A stretch of 37,083 nucleotides of DNA from Nitrospirota bacterium (GTDB lineage Bacteria > Nitrospirota > Nitrospiria > JACQBZ01). The first letter of the stretch is position 1. Every line of letters begins with the position of its first letter. Of this stretch, positions 12,924 through 22,556 are shown in pieces. The position numbers and the translations under genes are program-made. Under the pieces are notes generated by a model. The model searched no databases. It saw only the letters and a list, made by a program, of their open reading frames with translations, and had not been told where the DNA came from. The stretch is from positions 1 through 37,083 of the forward strand of contig JACQCA010000053.1 of assembly GCA_016201865.1 (NCBI GenBank), given 5' to 3'.

Positions 12924-13041
12924 GCTATCACCTCGTGATTCGCATTTTGATGCGGAAGGAAGACCCGAGTGGAATAGGCCGGGGCATTTCCAACGCAAAA
13001 CGTCTTCGAGGGCGGTTGACGCCGTCAAATGCATTGGTTTC

Positions 13042-13073
13042 AAGAATACTCCGAAACCCTCACCTTTTTCAAG
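13042..13073 (-). promoter_or_regulatory. tolC-operon promoter, copy 2 of a 32-bp repeated promoter
   Basis: Minus strand TTGAAA, an 18-base spacer and TATTCT, matching the proC promoter at 8356-8387 in 28 of 32 bases. The predicted start leaves a leader of roughly 110 bases before the tolC homologue. The shared spacer suggests common regulation or a recent duplication of the promoter. Confidence 0.65.
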
Positions 13074-13130
13074 CTGGAGAAGGGCCCCGCCAAACAGGGC
13101 TTCTGATTTAAGCGGGATAAATAGGCTTTG

Positions 13131-13871
13131 TCAGGCGTACAGATGGGCAACGTATTTTTCGTAGCCGTTGTAGAGAAGCGTCGGACGGCGCTCGCCGGTG
13201 CCGATCATCTTTTCAGTCGCCTGGGACCATCGGGGATGGGGAACCTCGGGGTTGACATTTGCCGGAAAGTCATACTCTTCCGGAATGACCGTATTCCAGA
13301 ACGTGCGCGGCCGCTGTTCCGTAAACTCGATCCGGACGATCGACTTAATGCTCTTGTAACCGTACTTCCACGGAACGACCAGCCGCAGCGGCGCGCCGTG
13401 CTGCTTCGGAAGCGGGTGGCCGTAGATTCCGGTCACGAGCATCGTGAGCGGGTTGACGGCCTCTTCCATCGTCAGCCCCTCGGTATAAGGCCAGGGGGCG
13501 TTCCAAGTGAAGGGATTTGATCGACGGGCCGGATGGAAGGTCGTGAACCGGATGAATCGAGCCTTCGAGAGGGGTCGGACAGTGTCGATGAAAGCCTTCA
13601 TCGGGAAGCCGGTCCAAGGCACGGCCATCGCCCAGGCCTCGACGCAACGGTGGCGGTAGAGCCGCTCTTCCATCGGCATTAATCGGAGCAGATCGTCCGG
13701 ATCGAAGGTTATCGGCTTTTCGACAAGCCCGGAGATTTCGATTGTCCAGGGCCGGACCGAAAATTTTTCAACCTTCAGATAGACGTCGTCCTTGTCGCTT
13801 GAGAATTCGTAAAAATTATTGTACCGGGCCGCGTCCGGAATCTCCCAGCCTTTAGGAATTCGGATCAGCAT
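13131..13871 (-). CDS. MsrP/YedY-like molybdopterin oxidoreductase subunit without a signal peptide
   Basis: A 246-residue sulfite-oxidase-fold protein close to MsrP (YedY), the molybdenum catalytic subunit of periplasmic methionine sulfoxide reductase. It has RHRCVEAWAMAVPW with the Cys that ligates molybdenum (about residue 76), the YNNFYEF block, GAPLRLVVPWKYGYKSIKSIV and the HPRWSQATEKMIG tail motif. It begins MLIRIPKGW, right where the mature MsrP core starts, and lacks the Tat signal and about 60 N-terminal residues; a stop codon lies four codons upstream in frame, so no longer form exists. It follows a second Mo subunit that does carry a Tat signal (37 bases upstream), so export as a passenger is possible. 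The substrate is inferred from similarity only. Confidence 0.85.
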   Translation of the reverse strand: MLIRIPKGWEIPDAARYNNFYEFSSDKDDVYLKVEKFSVRPWTIEISGLVEKPITFDPDDLLRLMPMEERLYRHRCVEAWAMAVPWTGFPMKAFIDTVRPLSKARFIRFTTFHPARRSNPFTWNAPWPYTEGLTMEEAVNPLTMLVTGIYGHPLPKQHGAPLRLVVPWKYGYKSIKSIVRIEFTEQRPRTFWNTVIPEEYDFPANVNPEVPHPRWSQATEKMIGTGERRPTLLYNGYEKYVAHLYA

Positions 13872-13908
13872 GGGTCGGCTCCGTCAAGGGTTTTGTGTCG
13901 CCGGAAAC

Positions 13909-14676
13909 TCAAATCCCAGCATACCATTCATATCCCTGGTCCTCCCAATAACCCCCGTTCCCGCCACCGATCGCCACCAGGTTATCGACCAACTCGATCC
14001 GCATAATATATTTGGCCATCTTATAGCCGAGCTGACGTTCGAGCCGAAGACGGATCGGCGCGCCGTGCGCGATCGGGAGAACCTGATCGTTGATTGCATA
14101 TGCCAGGAGGGTTTGTGGGTGATAGGCGTCGTCGAAATCGATGCTCTCGTAATAGTTCTGGCCCGACTCATCCGGATCGGCGCAGTGGAAGACGACATAG
14201 CGCGCCGAAGGAAGAGGGCGAACCCGATTCAATAGCTCACTGAGCGGAACGCCTTTCCATTTCGCGATGGCGCTCCATCCTTCGACGCAATCGTGACGGG
14301 TGATCTGCGTGCGGGACGGAAGCCGGCGCAGCTCGGAAAGCGAAAACTCGGCCGGCCGCTCGACTAAACCCGAAACGGTCAGCTTCCAGTCGGCGAAATT
14401 GTTTTTGGCCAAGACTTGGTAGTCCGGATTATTCGGATCGATATTCCCGTTGGTCGGGAAAACGGCCGAGCGATCGGCTTCGGTATACTCACGAGCCATC
14501 GCCTTTCGCGGTGTGATGAGACGCTGGACTCTCCGGGTCAAGCCTTCGGCGCTGCCCAGAATTCCAGGAAACCACTCGGACCGCGAAAGCTTATCGCAAC
14601 CGGCCAGAAGCATCAGGCCGACGGCCTGAGCGGACCGAATCATAAAACGCCGACGGTCAATTCGTTTCTTGATCAT
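13909..14676 (-). CDS. Tat-exported sulfite-oxidase-family molybdopterin subunit (lipoprotein)
   Basis: A 255-residue molybdopterin-binding oxidoreductase domain. The N-terminus has a twin-arginine motif (DRRRFMIRS) followed by a hydrophobic stretch and a lipobox LLAGC, so it is predicted to be Tat-exported and lipid-anchored at about Cys27. The catalytic core has TRHDCVEGWSAIAKW with the Mo-ligand Cys, the SIDFDDAYHPQTLLAYA block and HGAPIRLRLERQLGYK. It overlaps the cytochrome b gene by 20 bases and precedes the signal-less MsrP-like gene. Together these form a membrane-anchored Mo reductase or oxidase module; electrons would come from or go to the quinone pool through the cytochrome. Substrate not known. 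Confidence 0.9.
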   Translation of the reverse strand: MIKKRIDRRRFMIRSAQAVGLMLLAGCDKLSRSEWFPGILGSAEGLTRRVQRLITPRKAMAREYTEADRSAVFPTNGNIDPNNPDYQVLAKNNFADWKLTVSGLVERPAEFSLSELRRLPSRTQITRHDCVEGWSAIAKWKGVPLSELLNRVRPLPSARYVVFHCADPDESGQNYYESIDFDDAYHPQTLLAYAINDQVLPIAHGAPIRLRLERQLGYKMAKYIMRIELVDNLVAIGGGNGGYWEDQGYEWYAGI

Positions 14677-15628
14677 GATGGTCGACTCCCAATTCCGCGA
14701 TGTGATACCGTCCGATCAGCATGGAACGGAAATTGTTCCAAAGCCCGGTCACGGCCACCATAAAAAGATGGATCGCGACAAATCCGACAAACGCAAAGCA
14801 AACGACAAAATGGATCGTTCTCGCCGATTGCCGTCCGCCGAAAAGGGTGAGAAGGCCCGGAAAGGCCGCGTCGAGTCCCGGGGACATCGTCATTCCGGTC
14901 AAGAGGATCAGCGGCCCCAGACCGAAGACCACGCCGGTGTAGGCGAGCTTTTGGAGTACATTGTAACGGGCCGCCTCTTCCCCCTTCGGATGGCGAAACA
15001 AAAGATGATCCCGCACCGCGCGTCCGATGCCGCGAAGGTCTTTCGGGAACGGAATCAGGTCTCGATCAAGATGCCGGCTGAGGAGGGAGTAGAGGCCGAA
15101 GAGAAGTCCGTTGAGGACAAAGACCCATGCGAAGAAAAGATGCCAACGACGCCCCATCGCCAGCCATTGATGGCTTGGAATCGTGACCCAGGTCGGAAAC
15201 CCGCGACGATGAATCTGCCCGGCGGAATCTCTGGAGGCCCCCAGCCATCCCGTGGTGTCGAACGAATATCCAAAAACTGCGGTGATCCCCCGGATCTCGC
15301 CGGAGTCGGAAAAAACCGTGTCAAGCGAAAGAATCGGCCGGTCACGATCCGAACGCTCTCCAAGGTAGAGGGCCGGATGGGCGTTGAAGATCTGAAGACC
15401 GCTCATGACCAGAATCGGAAGGCAGAGGACATTGACCCAATGGGCCAGTCGGACGGGAACGGTATGACGATAAATCCAGCGGACAGCCGGAGCGTGAGAG
15501 TCGGTGGGAACCGGCGGTTCCGTGACGGGCAACTCGGATGGAATGGCAGAGGGTCTGATCTCTTCTGAACGATTCTCTGATTCCGGTGCTTCAGAGGGCT
15601 CGATCCGGTTGTCATTGGAGTCCGACAT
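14657..15628 (-). CDS. Cytochrome b561-like membrane subunit
   Basis: A 323-residue di-heme cytochrome b-type protein, similar in style to the b subunits of hydrogenases, thiosulfate reductases and YedY-like modules, and distinct from the small MsrQ/YedZ. About 55 acidic and proline-rich residues precede the first helix (VPVRLAHWVNVLCLPILVM). Further helices are near residues 175-195 (RRWHLFFAWVFVLNG), 230-255 and 270-300 (ARTIHFVVCFAFVGFVAIH). The His residues in these helices are suitable heme ligands. An unusually long loop lies between helices 1 and 2. The start at 15628 has GGGGAG upstream. It heads the three-gene molybdoenzyme operon. Confidence 0.88.
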   Translation of the reverse strand: MSDSNDNRIEPSEAPESENRSEEIRPSAIPSELPVTEPPVPTDSHAPAVRWIYRHTVPVRLAHWVNVLCLPILVMSGLQIFNAHPALYLGERSDRDRPILSLDTVFSDSGEIRGITAVFGYSFDTTGWLGASRDSAGQIHRRGFPTWVTIPSHQWLAMGRRWHLFFAWVFVLNGLLFGLYSLLSRHLDRDLIPFPKDLRGIGRAVRDHLLFRHPKGEEAARYNVLQKLAYTGVVFGLGPLILLTGMTMSPGLDAAFPGLLTLFGGRQSARTIHFVVCFAFVGFVAIHLFMVAVTGLWNNFRSMLIGRYHIAELGVDHHDQETN

Positions 15629-15722
15629 TGAAGCTCCCCTGCCCGCATTCATTCAATTCATAGTACGATGGTGTTCAGTCAGATCATCCGGCCAGGATAA
15701 GATAAGGTCATTTTACCGTTGC

Positions 15723-16241
15723 CTATTGTGCTTCGGCAAGGAGATTCTGAATCATCCTTTCGGTTTCTGCATAGCTTCCCTCCCCCACCCGGATGTACCG
15801 TATAACACCCTGTTTGTCGATCAGATAAATGGCCGGCCAGTAATGGTTTTGATATTGATTCCAGATGGTGAAGTCGTTATCGATGGCCACGGCGTAGGGG
15901 ATCTTTTTTTCTTGGACATACCTTTTGACGGCATCCACCTCCTTCTCATACGAGAACTCCGGAGTGTGAATTCCGATCACGACGAGCCCGCGGTCCGCAT
16001 AGGTCTGGTGCCACTTTTTAATCTGGGGCTCCACGTTCCTGCAGTTGTAGCAGCCAAACGTCCAAAACTCGACCATGACCACCTTCCCTCGAAGGCCGCT
16101 CAGCAATTGGGGATCTGAATTGATCCATACGGGGCTGATGATCTCGGGGGCCTTTTGGCCAACAAATGCGACGGCCTCGTCGAAATGGATCAACAGCATG
16201 CCGAAAATGATTGCTACGAACCCTCTCAGGAGCATCGTCAT
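15723..16241 (-). CDS. Exported thioredoxin-like protein (TlpA/DipZ C-terminal type)
   Basis: A 172-residue thioredoxin-fold protein with an N-terminal hydrophobic segment (residues 4-19) that should export or anchor it. The redox motif is CYNC (Cys64, Cys67) in EFWTFGCYNC, and the cis-Pro lies in YWPAIYLID near residue 138. The EFSYEKEVDAVKRYV and IDNDFTIWNQYQNHYWPA segments are typical of the DipZ C-terminal thioredoxin domain. Its ATG overlaps the stop codon of the small secreted Met-rich peptide gene as ATGA. A role in supplying electrons to, or forming disulfides in, the neighbouring periplasmic Msr proteins is plausible but inferred. Confidence 0.88.
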   Translation of the reverse strand: MTMLLRGFVAIIFGMLLIHFDEAVAFVGQKAPEIISPVWINSDPQLLSGLRGKVVMVEFWTFGCYNCRNVEPQIKKWHQTYADRGLVVIGIHTPEFSYEKEVDAVKRYVQEKKIPYAVAIDNDFTIWNQYQNHYWPAIYLIDKQGVIRYIRVGEGSYAETERMIQNLLAEAQ

Positions 16242-16360
16242 TTCATCATCTCCTTGCCTTTATCTTTCTCCATCATCTCGCCATGGCTCTGCGATCCTGT
16301 AAAACCGAGGACCATGACCAAGAGTACAGAACCCAGGTGAATCCTCTGGATATTTCGCAT
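16238..16360 (-). CDS. Small secreted Met/Lys-rich peptide (40 aa)
   Basis: A 40-codon gene easily missed because of its size. AAAGGAGG precedes the ATG at 16360 by about 8 bases. The product starts MRNIQRIHLG, has a hydrophobic core (SVLLVMVLGFTG) and continues SHGEMMEKDKGKEMMK, then TGA. The signal peptide plus HGEMMEK is clearly paralogous to the N-terminus of the Met-rich protein at 18532-19101 (GHGEMMEKEKG). If cleaved near Ser/His, the mature peptide is about 15 residues with four Met and four Lys. Its stop overlaps the thioredoxin-like gene. It could be a degenerate remnant of a longer Met-rich protein or a true scavenging peptide. Confidence 0.75.
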   Translation of the reverse strand: MRNIQRIHLGSVLLVMVLGFTGSQSHGEMMEKDKGKEMMK

Positions 16361-16390
16361 CTGGAATCCTCCTTTAAAATGCTTTGGTGA

Positions 16391-16425
16391 GAGGAAAAGC
16401 GGCCGGCCTCAGATGAGCCGGCCGC
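16391..16425 (-). terminator. Rho-independent terminator after the tandem-domain secreted protein
   Basis: GCGGCCGGC and GCCGGCCGC arms (16399-16407 and 16417-16425) form a 9-bp GC-rich stem around a short loop, followed on the minus strand by TTTTCCTC. It lies 38 bases after the stop of the 16463-17449 gene and would separate it from the small peptide gene downstream. Confidence 0.8.
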
Positions 16426-16462
16426 CGAGTCCGTTATGTCTGTTTCCCAGGCAGGGCACCGG

Positions 16463-17449
16463 CTATTTGCCAGCCACGCGCAGGATTGGGCAGTTGACGA
16501 TGATGCCGGGTTCGGGCCCCGCCGTCATCTGGCCACTTGCGACCATCTGATAGATCTCATCCTCAGAACGGATCAGTGGATAAGACCTCCGCGTCTGGTC
16601 CGTGAAAGCAACCGGAACCACATCCCACAGCGGGCTATAGTCGGGATCGATGTTTGATGGCCCGACCGGATTCGGGGCTGAATCCACGACCGTGCGCTGG
16701 GCTGGATTCGTGTTGCCGAAAAAGGGATAGAGATCCGCCTCGGCCCCGCTTTCACGAGCATTGGCCAATTTGGGCACGAAGTTCGTCCCGTCTGCGGCCG
16801 CCACGGCAGAGTCAGAGGTGTCCGTATTGATATAGAAGATTGTATTGCCATGTGCGAATCCCTTGATGAGCGGCAACGTAATCGTCGCTCCCGCCTCTTC
16901 ATCATCAACGTCGATCTCGATCGCGCTTGGGAGAACTCCATCGGGGGTAGCAACAATGGGACAGTTGACCACGATGTTTGTCGCCTCCACGATCACCTTA
17001 CCGGAAGCCTGAGCCGCCAAGACCGCATCTTCCGAGGTCAGGATCTCCGGAGTAAACCCCGGCTGCCAGGCGACAAGGTGGATTTGCCAGAGCGGACTAT
17101 AGTCAAGGTTGGTATTACTCGGGCCGACAGGGTAGGGTACCGAGTCGAGTATGTTGGGTTGGCTGAAATTTGTGACATGGAACAGGTCTGCGGTGGCGTT
17201 TACTGCGATTGCATTGGTCAGCTTCGGCACGAAAGTTGTGCCATCGGCAGTCGCCAGGCCAAGATCAGAGGCTTCTGTGTTGATGTAGAAGACCTGCTGC
17301 CCATCATAGAATCCCTGTATAAGCGGCAGTGTGATTTTGGGACGGGCCTGGGCCGTTCCCGGGAGCGCCAGCAGAACCGAAAATAGAAACAGCCCGATCG
17401 TACTGACCAGCGAAACGAAAGGGACATGCCAATTGATGAGTCGCTTCAT
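16463..17449 (-). CDS. Secreted protein of unknown function with two tandem homologous domains
   Basis: A 328-residue exported protein that I do not recognise by function. Residues 1-35 are a signal peptide ending LPGTAQARP. The rest is two copies of a domain of about 145 residues: each starts ITLPLIxGF, continues with FYINT-x3-SD, DGTxFVPKL, a D-SxPxPVGPSN segment, YSPLW, and ends IVVNCPI. The repeats begin near residues 38 and 190. The protein is poor in Met, unlike its neighbours. Its promoter region contains a 44-bp element shared with the Met-rich gene at 19101, so co-regulation is likely. The starting ATG at 17449 has AGGAAA before it. Possible ligand binding in the periplasm; no motif indicates an enzyme. 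Confidence 0.85.
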   Translation of the reverse strand: MKRLINWHVPFVSLVSTIGLFLFSVLLALPGTAQARPKITLPLIQGFYDGQQVFYINTEASDLGLATADGTTFVPKLTNAIAVNATADLFHVTNFSQPNILDSVPYPVGPSNTNLDYSPLWQIHLVAWQPGFTPEILTSEDAVLAAQASGKVIVEATNIVVNCPIVATPDGVLPSAIEIDVDDEEAGATITLPLIKGFAHGNTIFYINTDTSDSAVAAADGTNFVPKLANARESGAEADLYPFFGNTNPAQRTVVDSAPNPVGPSNIDPDYSPLWDVVPVAFTDQTRRSYPLIRSEDEIYQMVASGQMTAGPEPGIIVNCPILRVAGK

Positions 17450-17529
17450 GGATTTCCTCCTTATGGAAAGTGGTTGGAATGGATCCGGGGAACGCCGATC
17501 CGGGGCGTTCTCTCTGTCCATTTGAGTTC

Positions 17530-17585
17530 ATGATAAACAGACGAGATCACGCGATCCTCCCAAAACAATCACATTTCGGTCACGG
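17530..17585 (-). promoter_or_regulatory. Shared regulated promoter, copy A
   Basis: The 44-bp block 17542-17585 matches 19198-19241 with about four mismatches. On the minus strand the block is followed 6 bases later by TATCAT (17535-17530), and copy B has TATTCT at the same offset, so these are the likely -10 boxes. No good -35 is present, as expected for an activator-dependent promoter. The palindrome seen in copy B is imperfect here. Gene start is about 80 bases downstream. Confidence 0.55.
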
Positions 17586-17614
17586 GATAATCTTTAATGA
17601 AAAAAGTGTCCGAT

Positions 17615-17635
17615 TTAGGCTTTATAGATAGGCAG
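17615..17635 (-). other. Possible remnant of a histidine kinase 3' end
   Basis: Read on the minus strand, CTGCCTATCTATAAAGCC then TAA would encode LPIYKA-stop, close to the LPVYKP-stop that ends the histidine kinase just upstream of promoter copy B. It sits at a similar place relative to copy A. This suggests copy A arose with duplication of the kinase-promoter junction, but at 21 bases a chance match cannot be excluded. Confidence 0.3.
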
Positions 17636-17652
17636 GCGGCGACGCGTCCGAT

Positions 17653-17859
17653 TCAGTTGGATGGAATCGGTTCAGAAGCGGGGATGAACTTGAGCGACAC
17701 GCCGTTGTTGCACCAGCGCTGGTAAGTCGGCCGAGGGCCATCATCAAACCGATGTCCCTGATGTCCGCCGCAGCGGGCGCAATGGTACTCGGTGCGAAGA
17801 TAAATAAGTTTATAGTCGGGTTTAGTCTCCACAGGAAGACCCGTCGGGTCATAGGTCAT
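17653..17859 (-). CDS. Half-length MsrB-like protein
   Basis: A 68-residue protein equivalent to the C-terminal half of methionine-R-sulfoxide reductase MsrB. It contains [16 protein letters not shown] (Cys27, Cys30) and [13 protein letters not shown] with the catalytic-type Cys at residue 50. The N-terminal half of normal MsrB, including the first CxxC zinc pair, is absent, and no frame in the overlapping msrA supplies it. The start at 17859 gives an ATGA overlap with the msrA stop and has GGGGG before it; a GTG three codons upstream is an alternative. The tidy junction suggests an established short gene, not random decay. No signal peptide is present, although MsrA upstream has one. Activity is uncertain. 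Confidence 0.75.
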
Positions 17860-18482
17860 TTCCCCCACAATTCCTTCAGCCGCTGATCCCGTCCGCAGGT
17901 GTGGCGGTAGAATTTGTACCGGATCGGGTTTTTCTCATAAAAACCCTGGTGATACTCCTCGGCTTTGTAAAACGTTGAGGCCGGGGTTATCTTCGTCACG
18001 ATCGGTTCCTTAAAGGATTTGGTCCGCTCAATCGCCGCTCGGGACCGCTCGGCCAGTTGCCTCTGGTCATCATTGTGGTAGAAGATTTCGGATCGGTACT
18101 GCCTGCCCTGATCGCAAAATTGGTGGTCGGCCGCGGTAGGGTCGATGTTTCGCCAAAAGACGTCGAGCAGCTTTTCGTAACTGATTTTCTTCGGATCGTA
18201 CAGGATCTCCACCGCCTCGGCATGCCCGGTTCCTCCAGCCGAGACCTCTTTGTAGGTCGGATTCTCCTTGCGTCCGCCGGTGTAGCCCGATGTGGTCGAG
18301 ACGACGCCGTCGAGTTTGTCAAAGGCATGCTCCATGCACCAGAAACAACCGCCCGCAAAGGTGGCCTTTTCCAGATCGGCGGTGGCGTCCTTGGGCATCT
18401 CCCCGGCCCGGGCCGTTACCGTGAGGGTCGCGAAGAGGATCGCCGCCATTACCAGAGACTGACACATCCAGAACCGTTTCAT
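17856..18482 (-). CDS. msrA: Exported peptide methionine-S-sulfoxide reductase MsrA
   Basis: MsrA reduces methionine-S-sulfoxide in proteins. The 208-residue product has a signal peptide (residues 1-26, hydrophobic [14 protein letters not shown], cleavage near ARAGE), so it should act outside the cytoplasm. The active site is GGCFWCMEH with nucleophile Cys46 and a second Cys49; the resolving Cys196 lies in YRHTCGRDQ near the C-terminus. The SGYTGG, GHAEAV and [13 protein letters not shown] blocks are complete. It lies 49 bases downstream of the Met-rich secreted protein gene, probably in the same operon, and overlaps the msrB-like gene. This makes it a direct candidate for repairing that Met-rich protein. 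Confidence 0.96.
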
Positions 18483-18531
18483 GATCGTTCCTCAACCTCC
18501 ATATCTTGCCTGATCCCTAACAGGCCCAATA

Positions 18532-19101
18532 TTATTTTTTCATCATCTCCTTGTCCTCTTCCATCATTCTCTTCTTCTCATCCATCATCATACCGCCTTT
18601 TTCCATCATACCACCTTTCTCCATCATGAGCCCGACCTTGAGCGCGGTTCCATGATTCTTCATATTCTTGGGGTCCCCATCGGGATGATAGGCGATCTCA
18701 AGCATCTGCCATTTGCGAAACTCATCGGAAGACACGGTTGCGGAGTAATGCCCGTTGCCCTGATCGTCGCTCTTAAAGACGTAGTCCCCTTCCCCGATGC
18801 CGATCATGTCCATCTTGGGTTTCATGTTCACCAGCCAGACGGTGTAGACCGAATTGGGTTTCAGCCCCGTCATATGGAGAGTGATCTCCTTCTGACCCGC
18901 TCCGCTGTCTTTGATCACCGCTTCTCCCTTGGCCCCTTTGCCGGCGGAATCCGCCATCAGAGCCATCTTATGTTCTCCCATCATGCTTTCTTTTCCCATC
19001 ATTCCTTTTTCTTTTTCCATCATCTCGCCATGCCCGCGTGACACGGCTAATCCGAGAACAATCAACAACGCGGCTGAACCGATTTTCGTAATCTTTCTCA
19101 T
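18532..19101 (-). CDS. Secreted methionine-rich protein
   Basis: A 189-residue exported protein. The signal peptide is residues 1-24 (MRKITKIGSA, ALLIVLGLAV, SRGHG). Two Met-rich stretches flank a central domain: residues 27-49 with MM pairs at 27, 34 and 40, and residues 159-187 with MM or MMM groups at 159, 165, 171, 179 and 186. I count 25 Met after residue 26. The middle (about 58-157) looks like a beta-sandwich: ITLHMTGLKPNSVYTVWLVN, GIGEGDYVFKSDD, GHYSATVSSDEFRKWQ, AYHPDGDP. Met clusters can act as an oxidant sink or bind Cu(I)/Ag(I). Linkage to msrA favours oxidant scavenging. The start at 19101 has AGGAGG upstream; a longer frame is discounted. Confidence 0.88.
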   Translation of the reverse strand: MRKITKIGSAALLIVLGLAVSRGHGEMMEKEKGMMGKESMMGEHKMALMADSAGKGAKGEAVIKDSGAGQKEITLHMTGLKPNSVYTVWLVNMKPKMDMIGIGEGDYVFKSDDQGNGHYSATVSSDEFRKWQMLEIAYHPDGDPKNMKNHGTALKVGLMMEKGGMMEKGGMMMDEKKRMMEEDKEMMKK

Positions 19102-19185
19102 CTGGGATCCTCCTTTTATTGGTGGTGAACTGATTTTTGATTCCGGGAGACGGATGGAACGCGCTCCCGCTTCTATTCTGTTTGG

Positions 19186-19241
19186 AGAATAACCGACCGA
19201 GATCACGCGATCCTCCCGAAAAGATCACTTTTCGGTCACGG
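19186..19241 (-). promoter_or_regulatory. Shared regulated promoter, copy B, with palindrome
   Basis: Block 19198-19241 is the counterpart of 17542-17585. It contains the palindrome ccgaaaagatcacttttcgg (19216-19235, 8-base arms, 4-base centre). The likely -10 TATTCT is at 19191-19186, 6 bases after the conserved block as in copy A, and no consensus -35 is present. It lies directly after the histidine kinase stop codon and drives the Met-rich/msrA/msrB-like genes. Binding by the adjacent response regulator is a natural hypothesis. Confidence 0.6.
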
Positions 19242-19259
19242 AAAATAGAAGGGAATGAT

Positions 19260-20732
19260 CTATGGTTTATAGACGGGCAGGTGAAAGGTAAAGGTGGTGC
19301 CGTTATTGACGACGCTACTGGCTTCGATGGAACTTCCGTGGAGCTCCAGAATGCGCTTTGCGATCGCCAGGCCCAACCCGGCCCCGTCCGACCGCTCGTG
19401 CTTCTCGACACGGTAGAAGCGGTCAAAGATATAAGGCAATTCTTCCTGCGGGATTCCGCAACCGGTATCGGCCACCTGGATCTTCACCCGGTCGTTGTTG
19501 AGAACCAGCGCGATGGTAATCGCCCCGCCTTCGGGCGTGTACCGGAGCGCGTTCTCGATCAGATTCTCAAGCACCCGTTCGATCAGCCCAATGTCGGCCG
19601 AAACAAACGGAAGATTTTTGGGAAGCTCGGCCCGTAGCCCGACCCTTTTTTTCTCCGAAGTGAGCTGGAACTTCTGCACAACATCCTGAACCAGCTCGCT
19701 TAAGGAGAAAGGCTCGACGTGAGGCTGGGTCTCGTAAGAATCCAGTTTGGCGAGTTCAAACAGTTCGGAGACGAGTTTTCCCAACCGTTCGCTGTGTTTC
19801 GTGGCGATCTCAAGATAGTTTCGATGTTCCTCCGGGGTCAGCGTCCCTTCTTTTAAAAGCAGTGTCTCAAGATAGCCGTGAAGCGAAGCGAGCGGGGTGC
19901 GAAGATCATGCGAGACATTGGCCACCAGCTCACGCCGGAGCGCGTCGGCCTCTTTGAGCTTTGTCATCTGAAGAACGATGCGGTCCGTCATCTGATTGAA
20001 GGTCTCCCCGAGCCGGTCGATTTCATCCCCGAAGCGACCTTTATCATGGACCGATTGCTTTATCGGCTCCGAAAAATTGCTTTGTTTGAACGCCTCCATG
20101 GTTGAGGCGAGCCTTCGGAGTCTCCGCGTCAAGAGGTTGAAGAAGACAAGTCCCGCCAGCAACGCGAACAGTAGTCCGCCGCTCACGACGCCGGTGCTGA
20201 GCCGCAGTATGTAACTGCCTTGCAGCATCTGCGCGACGGAATCGTACTCCTCTCCGCTCAGGATGACGTAAAGATAGCCCTCGACCGGACCCGCCACTGG
20301 AATCGGACAGACCGAAAAGATCTTTTTGCGGCTCACATCACGCGGGTCGTCCCCCAGGATCGGAAGGGTTGTGTTCTTGTTCAAAAACCGCCGAATGGGC
20401 TCCAATGAAACCTCCTGCCGTTTCACTTTTCCGGGAAGTGCCGAGAAGGCCAGGATGGCTCCGTTCGGGTCAAGAAGGTAAATCTCGATGTTCGGATTGA
20501 TCACCATGAGCATGTGGAAAATGTCCTTCAGGACCGCTTCGTTGATCCGGCCTTCCGTCATCAGAATATTCTTGGAAACCAAATGCTCCGCCAATGTGCG
20601 GTTGAGCTTCTGGTTGACCTCCTGTAGATGCATCTGCGTGGTGAATAGGGTTAATAGAACATAGAACACCCCGATGAGACAGAACAGTCCCAGCAGCACG
20701 GCGGCCAATTTGGCATAGAGGGTCTTGAGCAT
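19260..20732 (-). CDS. Sensor histidine kinase (OmpR-partner type)
   Basis: A 490-residue membrane sensor kinase. TM1 spans about residues 8-30, a periplasmic sensor region of about 145 residues follows (31-175), and TM2 is near 179-201. A HAMP domain (about 202-255) leads to the dimerisation helix with the phospho-acceptor His275 in ANVSHDLRTPL. The ATP-binding domain has the N box ENLIENALRYTP, the G1 box ADTGCGIP, the F box YIFDRFYRV and the G2 box GAGLGLAIAK. The ATG at 20732 lies 4 bases after the response regulator stop. The sensor domain has no recognised ligand motif; the periplasmic location fits sensing of envelope oxidants or metals. Confidence 0.94.
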   Translation of the reverse strand: MLKTLYAKLAAVLLGLFCLIGVFYVLLTLFTTQMHLQEVNQKLNRTLAEHLVSKNILMTEGRINEAVLKDIFHMLMVINPNIEIYLLDPNGAILAFSALPGKVKRQEVSLEPIRRFLNKNTTLPILGDDPRDVSRKKIFSVCPIPVAGPVEGYLYVILSGEEYDSVAQMLQGSYILRLSTGVVSGGLLFALLAGLVFFNLLTRRLRRLASTMEAFKQSNFSEPIKQSVHDKGRFGDEIDRLGETFNQMTDRIVLQMTKLKEADALRRELVANVSHDLRTPLASLHGYLETLLLKEGTLTPEEHRNYLEIATKHSERLGKLVSELFELAKLDSYETQPHVEPFSLSELVQDVVQKFQLTSEKKRVGLRAELPKNLPFVSADIGLIERVLENLIENALRYTPEGGAITIALVLNNDRVKIQVADTGCGIPQEELPYIFDRFYRVEKHERSDGAGLGLAIAKRILELHGSSIEASSVVNNGTTFTFHLPVYKP

Positions 20733-20736
20733 TTCG

Positions 20737-21456
20737 TTACCTTGGCCCGTCCCCTTCGGGTTCCGCGAATTTATAACCGACACCCCAAACCGTAAGAATG
20801 TACCGGGGGCGGGCAGGATCCTCTTCGATCTTGGCCCGCAGCCGGTTGATATGGGAATTGACGGTGTGCTCGTACCCGTCGTGCGCATAGCCCCAGACCA
20901 GATCCAGAAGCTGGGAGCGGGTGTAAACCCGGCCGGGATGAAGCGCAAACTGTAGGAGGAGGTCGAACTCCTTCGCGGTCAGCTCGGCCGATTGGCCCTG
21001 GAGCGTCACCTTGCGCTTTTCAACGTCAATCATGAGCTCACCCGACCGGATCGTTTTGCGAACCTCCGGATGCGCAAGCGACCCCAGCGACTCGACGCGC
21101 CGGAACAGGGCCTTGACCCGGGCCAGAAGCTCCCGGATACTGAAAGGCTTGGTGAGATAATCGTCCGCGCCGATCTCCAGCCCCAGCACCCGGTCGAGTT
21201 CCGACGATTTGGCCGTCAGCATCAAGATCGGCGTGTACGGCGGATTGGCCCGCAGCCGCCGGCAGACCTCCAGCCCATCCATTCTCGGAAGCATTAAATC
21301 CAAGATGATCAGGTCATAGGTCCTGGAGAGGGCCTGATCGAGACCGACCGAGCCGTCATGAGCCATATGAACCTCGCAGCCGAGATCCCTCAGATGAAGT
21401 TCCACGAGACGCGCGATGTCCCGGTCGTCCTCGATCACCAGTATTTTACGAGGCAT
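20737..21456 (-). CDS. OmpR/PhoB-family response regulator
   Basis: A 239-residue response regulator. The receiver domain (residues 1-120) has the acidic pair Asp10/Asp11 (IEDD), phospho-acceptor Asp53 (ILDLMLPRMDG), the conserved Thr in MLTAKS and Lys in LTKPFS. The C-terminal winged helix (about 138-232) carries ELTAKEFDLLLQFALHPGRVYTRSQLLDLVWG and the VNSHINRLRAKIE recognition region, ending VWGVGYKF. It is transcribed ahead of its kinase with a 4-base gap. Family members bind direct repeats near activator-dependent promoters, which makes the duplicated promoter elements downstream its likely targets. Confidence 0.95.
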   Translation of the reverse strand: MPRKILVIEDDRDIARLVELHLRDLGCEVHMAHDGSVGLDQALSRTYDLIILDLMLPRMDGLEVCRRLRANPPYTPILMLTAKSSELDRVLGLEIGADDYLTKPFSIRELLARVKALFRRVESLGSLAHPEVRKTIRSGELMIDVEKRKVTLQGQSAELTAKEFDLLLQFALHPGRVYTRSQLLDLVWGYAHDGYEHTVNSHINRLRAKIEEDPARPRYILTVWGVGYKFAEPEGDGPR

Positions 21457-21494
21457 GATTCAAAGCTCCCACCCGACCCACAGCCTACCATGAG

Positions 21495-21500
21495 ATTATC
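21495..21500 (-). promoter_or_regulatory. candidate extended -10 of the response regulator-kinase operon
   Basis: Minus strand TGTGATAAT contains GATAAT (21500-21495) preceded by a TGN extension. No convincing -35 was found. It is 39 bases upstream of the response regulator ATG, in the short gap after the terminator at 21563-21605. Confidence 0.35.
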
Positions 21501-21562
21501 ACAAAAGCATCACGAGGAATAGCATCGGCACGCCGTGAGGCGTATGCAGGTTGAATCCGCAT

Positions 21563-21605
21563 AAAACAAAAAGGAGGAGGGCCCCGCATCGCAGAGCCCT
21601 CCTCC
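21563..21605 (-). terminator. Rho-independent terminator
   Basis: A 10-bp stem (GGAGGAGGGC with GCCCTCCTCC) closes a 13-base loop and is followed on the minus strand by TTTTTGTTTT. It lies 27 bases after the stop of the 21632-22237 gene and insulates the two-component operon from it. Confidence 0.9.
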
Positions 21606-21631
21606 AATCGGATCACGCAAGATCTGTCTTC

Positions 21632-22237
21632 TTACTTGATCCAGACGGGATTTTGATACACCATAAGATGGGCATAGGGTGTCCCCTCGAACATGATCCA
21701 TGTCCCGAACTTGTTTGGAGCAGCAGGGATCCCGCTCGCCACGGAGTCGAATGACCAAAAAACCATCCAATGAGGCGGCTCCGACACCCATTTGGCATTT
21801 TTGACCTCCGGGTCATCCTCCTTCAGGACCCTCCCATTCTTTTCGTAATGCCACCCCCCTCGAGCCATGTAGGAGATCCCGGGAGCGGCGTTGGTCGGTT
21901 TCGGGACACCGCTCATCAGATCATTGATCCACTGCCCGGCAGCCTGGTCCGAGCAGATCGGATCGGGGATGGATTGGCCGTGAATGTCCGGGAGGCAGGT
22001 GAAGCCGTTCGTCCCTTTCTTCGCCTCGATCATCTTGCCGTCCTCGCCGGGGAGCATCACCGCCGCGTCCTTCGCAATTTCCGGCGGGGCGGCGCTGAGG
22101 GCCAGCTTGATCAGGTCTTCCTTCGACATTCCCTTGACTCCCTTTCCGCCCATCTTATGGCCTTCGTCCGCCATGGATGCGGCCGCGAGACTGAAGGTGA
22201 TCACTATCATCGCGATGAGATTTATCATGCGTTTCAT
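21632..22237 (-). CDS. Secreted protein of unknown function
   Basis: A 201-residue exported protein that I do not recognise. Residues 1-23 form a signal peptide (MIVITFSLAAASMADEG). A His/Met/Gly/Lys stretch follows (GHKMGGKGVKGM), then KEDLIKLALSAAPPEIAKDAAVM, and a C-terminal half rich in aromatic residues (GGWHYEKNG, PPHWMVFWSFD, GTWIMFEGTPYAHLMVYQNP). Two Cys (in FTCLPD and PICSDQ) could form a disulfide. GGAGGAAAAGAG precedes the ATG at 22237. It is preceded by a DUF4242-like gene and followed by a strong terminator. The short Met/His segment recalls the Met-rich neighbours but is too small to assign a role. Confidence 0.82.
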   Translation of the reverse strand: MKRMINLIAMIVITFSLAAASMADEGHKMGGKGVKGMSKEDLIKLALSAAPPEIAKDAAVMLPGEDGKMIEAKKGTNGFTCLPDIHGQSIPDPICSDQAAGQWINDLMSGVPKPTNAAPGISYMARGGWHYEKNGRVLKEDDPEVKNAKWVSEPPHWMVFWSFDSVASGIPAAPNKFGTWIMFEGTPYAHLMVYQNPVWIK

Positions 22238-22263
22238 CTCTTTTCCTCCTTTATAGTTGACGT

Positions 22264-22286
22264 GCCCCAGCTTTTAAGGCCGGGGC
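22264..22286 (-). repeat. intergenic hairpin
   Basis: GCCCCGGC and GCTGGGGC arms (minus strand) form an 8-bp stem with one G-U pair and a 7-base loop. It stands 9 bases after the stop of the 22296-22556 gene and upstream of the next ribosome-binding site. No U-run follows, so it may adjust relative expression or stability rather than terminate fully. Confidence 0.45.
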
Positions 22287-22295
22287 ATGGTTTGT

Positions 22296-22556
22296 TCAGA
22301 CCTGAAGAAATTTCCCTGTTGCCCGATCCCACTCATAGTCCACCGGATAAAGATCGCCCGGCGGCTTGTCTTTGAGGAAGGTCCGGATCACGGTCTCGTT
22401 CGGCGCCTCAAAGACGCAGCACATCTTACCGGTTCCCGAAAAGAAATGGGCATGCTGACGGATCCCGTTCCCCAGATCGGCGCGCGGCGGAAGCTCTTTT
22501 ATCGCCTGCTTCACGGCAGCCGGCGTGGCGGCAAAGATTGCAACGAACTTTGGCAT
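22296..22556 (-). CDS. Small ferredoxin-like-fold protein, DUF4242-like
   Basis: An 86-residue cytoplasmic protein, MPKFVAIFAATPAAVKQAI onwards, with FFSGTGKMCCVFEAPNETVIRTFL in the middle. This GKMxCxFEAP pattern followed by a helix resembles DUF4242-type small proteins (a metal-binding ferredoxin-like fold in characterised relatives). It resembles the frameshifted gene at 22721-22983 (GKMYCEYEAPTIELIYEHA). The ATG at 22556 is chosen because GGGGGT stands 7 bases before it; in-frame GTG and ATG codons lie just upstream. Function unknown; family assignment is from pattern alone. Confidence 0.7.
   Translation of the reverse strand: MPKFVAIFAATPAAVKQAIKELPPRADLGNGIRQHAHFFSGTGKMCCVFEAPNETVIRTFLKDKPPGDLYPVDYEWDRATGKFLQV

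Follow-up and report, generated by a model that had tools for sequence, protein, structure and literature searches.

Sacrificial methionine is already known in the form of loose peptides. MrpX has been described, together with YedYZ, as a methionine cycle that detoxifies hypochlorite in the periplasm (PMC4623255), and BcrX, with MsrQP-type enzymes, as induced by HOCl and as contributing to HOCl resistance (PMC8315932). A disordered Met-rich tail on a folded core also has a precedent: the copper chaperone PcuC has one disordered C-terminal tail rich in Met and His (PMC12860648). The locus analyzed here differs from the loose peptides in that the Met stretches are anchored on a folded domain: the window, a 37,083-nucleotide stretch from a groundwater bacterium of the Nitrospirota, encodes a secreted protein, P0001, in which two Met-rich arms flank a folded core (Table 1). 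The sections of the open-licence literature that were searched yielded no Met-armed folded protein of this kind. We consider it fairly probable that P0001 is a periplasmic rechargeable methionine sink, a tethered version of MrpX or BcrX that is recharged by co-encoded Msr enzymes.

Table 1. Features of the Met-arm locus, in window coordinates
Feature	Position	Strand	Basis or remark
MsrP, without visible export signal	13131..13871	-	NF003767 377 bits, cut-off 207, model positions 72-312
Molybdopterin oxidoreductase, apparent Tat/lipoprotein signal	13909..14676	-	PF00174 2.6e-37; MsrP model 105 of 207 bits, below cut-off
Cytochrome b561-type membrane protein, MsrQ position	14657..15652	-	PF01292 3.4e-21
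Secreted thioredoxin-like protein (AhpC-TSA/ResA-like, CYNC)	15723..16241	-	Pfam
40-aa ORF, signal peptide and 14-residue Met/Lys/Glu tail	16238..16360	-	sequence comparison
Secreted protein, two DUF7482 stretches	16463..17449	-	PF24298 1e-36
41-bp element, second copy, ahead of DUF7482	17545..17585	-	sequence comparison
MsrB remnant, internally deleted	17683..17871	-	sequence reading
MsrA, apparent signal peptide	17856..18482	-	PF01625 3e-67, TIGR00401 7.8e-64
Met-armed secreted protein P0001, 189 aa	18532..19101	-	ATG at 19101, stop 18532-18534
C-terminal Met arm, residues 159-189, 11 Met of 31	18535..18627	-	partly predicted helical
SOD-like beta-sandwich core, residues 55-158, 6 Met of 104	18628..18939	-	without HxH motif; model, fold comparison
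N-terminal Met arm, residues 26-54, 8 Met of 29	18940..19026	-	composition; low pLDDT to residue 40
41-bp conserved element CCGTGACCGAAA..GTGATC..GGGAGGATCGCGTGATC, upstream of armed gene	19201..19241	-	sequence comparison
Sensor histidine kinase	19260..20735	-	Pfam
OmpR-type response regulator	20737..21456	-	Pfam
Secreted orphan, 201 aa, upstream of response regulator	21632-22237	-	no Pfam/NCBIfam match

An earlier note on this DNA had placed the gene at 18532-19101, which is correct, with the minus strand as coding strand, and the Met clusters it described at both ends were borne out by the counts (8/29 in the N arm and 11/31 in the C arm vs 6/104 in the core). The N terminus of P0001, read by eye, resembles a signal peptide. 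The arms hold 19 of the 25 non-initiator Met, compared with a mean of 9.1 and a largest value of 19 when the mature sequence was shuffled 20,000 times, and the protein contains 9 MM pairs vs a mean of 3.7 on shuffling (p 0.0035). With 9 Met per 25 residues it is the most Met-dense of the 35 ORFs in the window, where the runner-up has 3, and it ranks top among 300 ORFs of at least 100 aa from 21 stretches, which were mostly picked around genes of this study. Both arms contain paired Met at steps of 5-6 among many Lys and Glu, as does a free peptide in genome G027; in a CusB-like protein the copper-type stretch differs, with Met steps of mostly 3-4 and almost no Lys/Glu. Cys is absent from both arms and no His in them is conserved (the ortholog from genome G006 has Lys in place of H44), and MM pairs are the main pattern rather than MxM or MxxM steps. 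Pfam and NCBIfam scans of P0001 returned no family above cut-off, with the anti-sigma-K C-terminal domain RskA_C below its Pfam cut-off (16 bits vs 29.4, E 0.015), and the MXKDX repeat model TIGR02953 gave no match at E up to 10.

P0001 is encoded with a putative periplasmic Met-sulfoxide reductase system that includes MsrA and MsrP over cut-off. Because its gene lies among genes for repair of oxidized methionine, the arms are probably a rechargeable oxidant sponge. The comparison with MrpX drawn in the earlier note stands as regards gene context, since MsrA and MsrP are in the cluster and the tested bare homologues lack them. An intact MsrB of this genome sits on another contig (C32, L160). 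The G006 locus shows the reverse arrangement, with MsrB intact and MsrA reduced to its last 33 residues (L013, 2618-2716). We also observed that the second, canonical MsrP/MsrQ pair of the window genome adjoins a secreted DUF7482 look-alike, as judged by eye (L076, 5940-6983), and that MsrP and the neighboring molybdoenzyme with the Tat/lipoprotein signal may be exported as a pair. The 40-aa ORF is most similar to the armed gene of G006, at its 5' end; it is probably what an internal deletion left of a second armed gene, and has perhaps become a mini Met peptide. Pfam and NCBIfam recognised no copper gene in the cluster, and an Rfam scan of 13000-22500 returned no match.

In the proposed mechanism, an SOD-fold scaffold without the dismutase copper motif would bear two mobile arms that expose 19 Met among Lys, Glu and Gly. 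Periplasmic oxidants would convert arm Met to Met sulfoxide (MetO) ahead of damage to vital proteins, with reactive chlorine the most likely oxidant and peroxynitrite or others possible, and the secreted MsrA, the MsrP/cytochrome b pair and the thioredoxin-like protein would then restore the arm Met. Export of P0001, hypochlorite as the oxidant, MetO formation and MetO reduction by the cluster enzymes are steps that we infer, as are control by the neighboring two-component system and a ligand of the core. The carrier may serve for retention, for stability, or as a ligand or copper site within the core. Against the reading as a sink are the MsrP without a visible export signal, the broken MsrB and the presence of the armed core in three genomes only.

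The 41-bp element found upstream of the armed gene and again ahead of the DUF7482 gene also precedes, in identical or nearly identical form, the armed gene in genome G005 and a Spond_N gene in G006. Its 28-base core has exactly two sites in the 2.47-Mb genome with up to 3 mismatches allowed, and its 31-base form is absent from 100 shuffles of the window. The element is probably an operator or promoter, for which the adjoining response regulator would be the obvious candidate binder. The armed gene of G005 has a divergent sigma-70-type (ECF-like) gene. A promoter motif like that of Brucella BcrS was detected in 0 of the upstream regions of 17 genes or clusters.

Relatives of the core are few. 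A scan of GTDB contigs returned 10 loci with core relatives, from Nitrospirota, one member of the Desulfuromonadales, two of NC10/Methylomirabilota and a weak match in Bacilli; a core profile matched 6 of 395 Nitrospirota genomes and P0001 as query matched 9 of 58 close relatives, the window genome included in both counts. Neither viral contigs nor plasmids contained a relative of P0001. The SOD-like core is armed only in the window genome, G005 (L019) and G006 (L020), all of one family, and each of these three loci has MsrA, MsrB or an MsrP-like molybdoenzyme. At 10 tested bare-core loci (7 of 5-20 kb and 3 of 2-3 kb, leaving out G020, G040, G009 and the weak Bacilli match L028), none had a match to Msr, molybdoenzyme, cytochrome b or thioredoxin families. 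The homologue alignment that the earlier note had proposed as a check shows conservation of the arm Met: 18 of 19 Met columns are kept across the three armed orthologs vs 31 of 40 other ungapped arm columns (small numbers), and arm dN/dS among the three is 0.03-0.36 (few sites). A DNA pattern derived from the arms matched 10 of 395 genomes, four of them with a Met-rich ORF at the match (G000, G005, G016, G027); the remaining six matches look like chance, and a reversed control matched one genome.

A second match of P0001 in G016 (contig C119) covers signal peptide and arm only, and is a DM13 protein (PF10517, 3.9e-14) with arms similar to those of P0001. Among 166 genomes of the class, we found 9 DM13 proteins in 8 genomes, and every one of these proteins is associated with Met-rich sequence: 8 by fusion (7 genomes) and one through an adjoining separate peptide. 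With arm and core borders drawn by regular expressions, the N arms of the 8 armed proteins carry 7-14 Met in 27-63 aa (the weakest, in G159, has 7 in 57), and the C arms range from 5 to 28 aa, long and Met-rich in four (6-8 Met in 20-28 aa) and short in the other four (1-2 Met), around 90-aa cores that hold 0-2 Met. The unfused case is G027, where a DM13 lipoprotein without arm Met lies beside a 68-aa Met-rich lipoprotein with a short thioredoxin-like ORF between them. A free Met-rich lipoprotein beside an arm-less DM13 lipoprotein, as at locus L041 (482-688 and 945-1400), is a split version of the fused proteins. None of 11 plasmid DM13 proteins (Deinococcus, Streptomyces, cyanobacteria, Haladaptatus) has Met arms, with at most 3 Met per 25 residues. 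On the plasmid of the archaeon Haladaptatus (L141), a spondin-domain gene adjoins the DM13 gene, which echoes the Spond_N/DM13 pairing in L014 and L090. The earlier note was right to set two Met arms on a folded core apart from the known peptides as a design of its own, and this design recurs on a second fold.

Each of the 9 DM13 genes of the class has a thioredoxin-like gene no more than about 2.5 kb away, and this gene is the constant partner at the armed DM13 loci. Company of Msr genes is not universal there, since a molybdoenzyme is near 3 of the 8 loci (one an MsrP relative) and neither MsrA nor MsrB was detected in the stretches read at any of the 8. Arm length and spacing drift among the DM13 proteins and Met stays abundant, so a bulk sink fits better than an ordered site. 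Among 30 thioredoxin-like loci that were read, the window included, an armed protein, a DM13 protein or the 40-aa ORF was close by in 7; a Met-rich partner is not universal at such loci.

Free Met-rich peptides occupy a comparable place. In G010, G026, G034 and G053, four of the five such loci examined, a free secreted Met-rich peptide is encoded directly upstream of a cytochrome b/molybdoenzyme pair, the fifth (G015) being without one, and in G006 the armed gene itself is upstream of such a pair, with MsrB in between. Among these free peptides only that of G010 resembles the MXKDX model (29.3 bits, below the cut-off of 41).

The beta-sandwich proposed for the center of P0001 was supported by AlphaFold2, which gave a pLDDT of about 90 for residues 41-160 (9 relatives) and below 50 for residues 1-40 and 161-172; a C-terminal helix, 170-188, was predicted in P0001 at modest confidence. 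Foldseek returned no match to the model at E 0.001 or better, and the best match was the Cu-only SOD DR_0644 at E 1.1e-3. VIA-align placed DR_0644 at Z 12.1 and 2.1 Å over 97 residues, with other SODs ranking below; the model of a bare homologue reached Z 11.7, with SODs again among the matches listed. The copper ligands of DR_0644 are assigned as His74, His76 and His182 (PMC9823218). P0001 has His at 24, 44, 76, 118, 139 and 150 only and is missing the copper HxH motif, the His of which are invariant in 11 SodC proteins of the class. In sequence searches P0001 did not match Sod_Cu (PF00080) at E up to 1, a comparison of the core profile with the 11 SodC proteins by hhalign gave a probability of 7.5%, and a PDB search with the single sequence or a 9-row profile found no convincing match. 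Three core residues, M97, H139 and M147, are invariant across 9 homologues, armed or bare. By SOD topology, they would presumably be near the former metal site, and their invariance suggests a metal or ligand role beyond that of a passive scaffold.

Binding of Cu(I) or Ag(I) was the main alternative raised in the earlier note, and we rate it as possible but doubtful that P0001 handles these metals, with a converted Met/His site at M97, H139 and M147 in the SOD-like core, arms that recruit copper, and Msr genes that mend copper-exposed Met. These three residues are invariant in 9 homologues, so that the core may bind copper, the nearest folds of the core are copper enzymes, and in PcuC a Cu site is combined with a disordered tail, rich in Met and His, that has been proposed to play two roles (PMC12860648). 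For the conserved Met/His spacing of a copper site, which the earlier note named as part of its refuting condition, the picture is mixed: no His is conserved in the arms, and the core has the invariant M97, H139 and M147. The arms also lack Cys and favor MM pairs over MxM/MxxM, they are confined to the company of Msr genes whereas the conserved core residues occur in arm-less homologues too, the cluster has no recognised copper gene, and the same slot is taken elsewhere by free Met-rich peptides.

The MM pairs, which repeat every 5-7 residues, could instead be heptad-like steps on amphipathic helices lined with Met, which would bind periplasmic proteins as they unfold under oxidative stress, with oxidation toggling the binding. 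The partly predicted helix at 170-188 in the C arm is compatible with such a chaperone, which we nevertheless regard as quite improbable given the modest helix confidence, the unstructured N arm, and DM13 arms that differ in register and in length (N 27-63 aa, C 5-28 aa). We give least credence to the arms being functionless, decaying low-complexity sequence produced by slippage. They are of low complexity, and the 40-aa remnant and broken Msr copies indicate a fluid locus, but the retention of 18 of 19 arm Met columns, the dN/dS of 0.03-0.36 and the return of arms on an unrelated core adjoining the same thioredoxin-like gene all argue against decay. A bolder extension of the sink, which we offer as an unlikely speculation, is that Nitrospirota have a portable Met arm, in which free MrpX-like peptides are exchanged, by fusion and deletion at one type of locus, with arms borne by at least two unrelated secreted cores, an ex-dismutase fold and DM13, and that the ex-dismutase core swapped its His copper site for the invariant Met/His site, which gathers copper or oxidant beside the arms to make a self-loading rechargeable scavenger.

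If P0001 is a tethered methionine sink, sacrificial methionine would be a module that evolution fixes onto folded carriers, beyond loose peptides, and reactive-chlorine or similar oxidant stress would be indicated for groundwater Nitrospirota. Related genomes contain free, split and fused versions, a matched set of proteins in which to measure directly how tethering alters scavenging and recycling by Msr.

Compared with Cu,Zn and Cu-only SODs such as DR_0644, the core of P0001 shares the predicted Greek-key sandwich but differs in having neither the HxH copper motif nor a Sod_Cu Pfam match. PcuC has an HxnMx22HxM Cu site, a motif absent from P0001 by inspection, and one Met/His tail (PMC12860648), whereas P0001 has an SOD-like fold, Msr company and two arms in which no His is conserved. 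The DM13 proteins of seven related genomes carry similar arms on an unrelated small core (PF10517), and the one from G016 resembles P0001 through signal peptide and arm only. The MXKDX-type peptides MrpX of Azospira suillum and BcrX of Brucella melitensis likewise place a secreted stretch rich in Met, Lys and acidic residues beside a periplasmic Met-sulfoxide reductase and a membrane cytochrome, and a stress regulator adjoins their clusters as it does here, although theirs is an ECF sigma factor and the window has a two-component system (G005 has an adjoining sigma-70-type gene). MrpX and BcrX are short free peptides; P0001 instead carries two arms on a confidently predicted core, residues 41-160.
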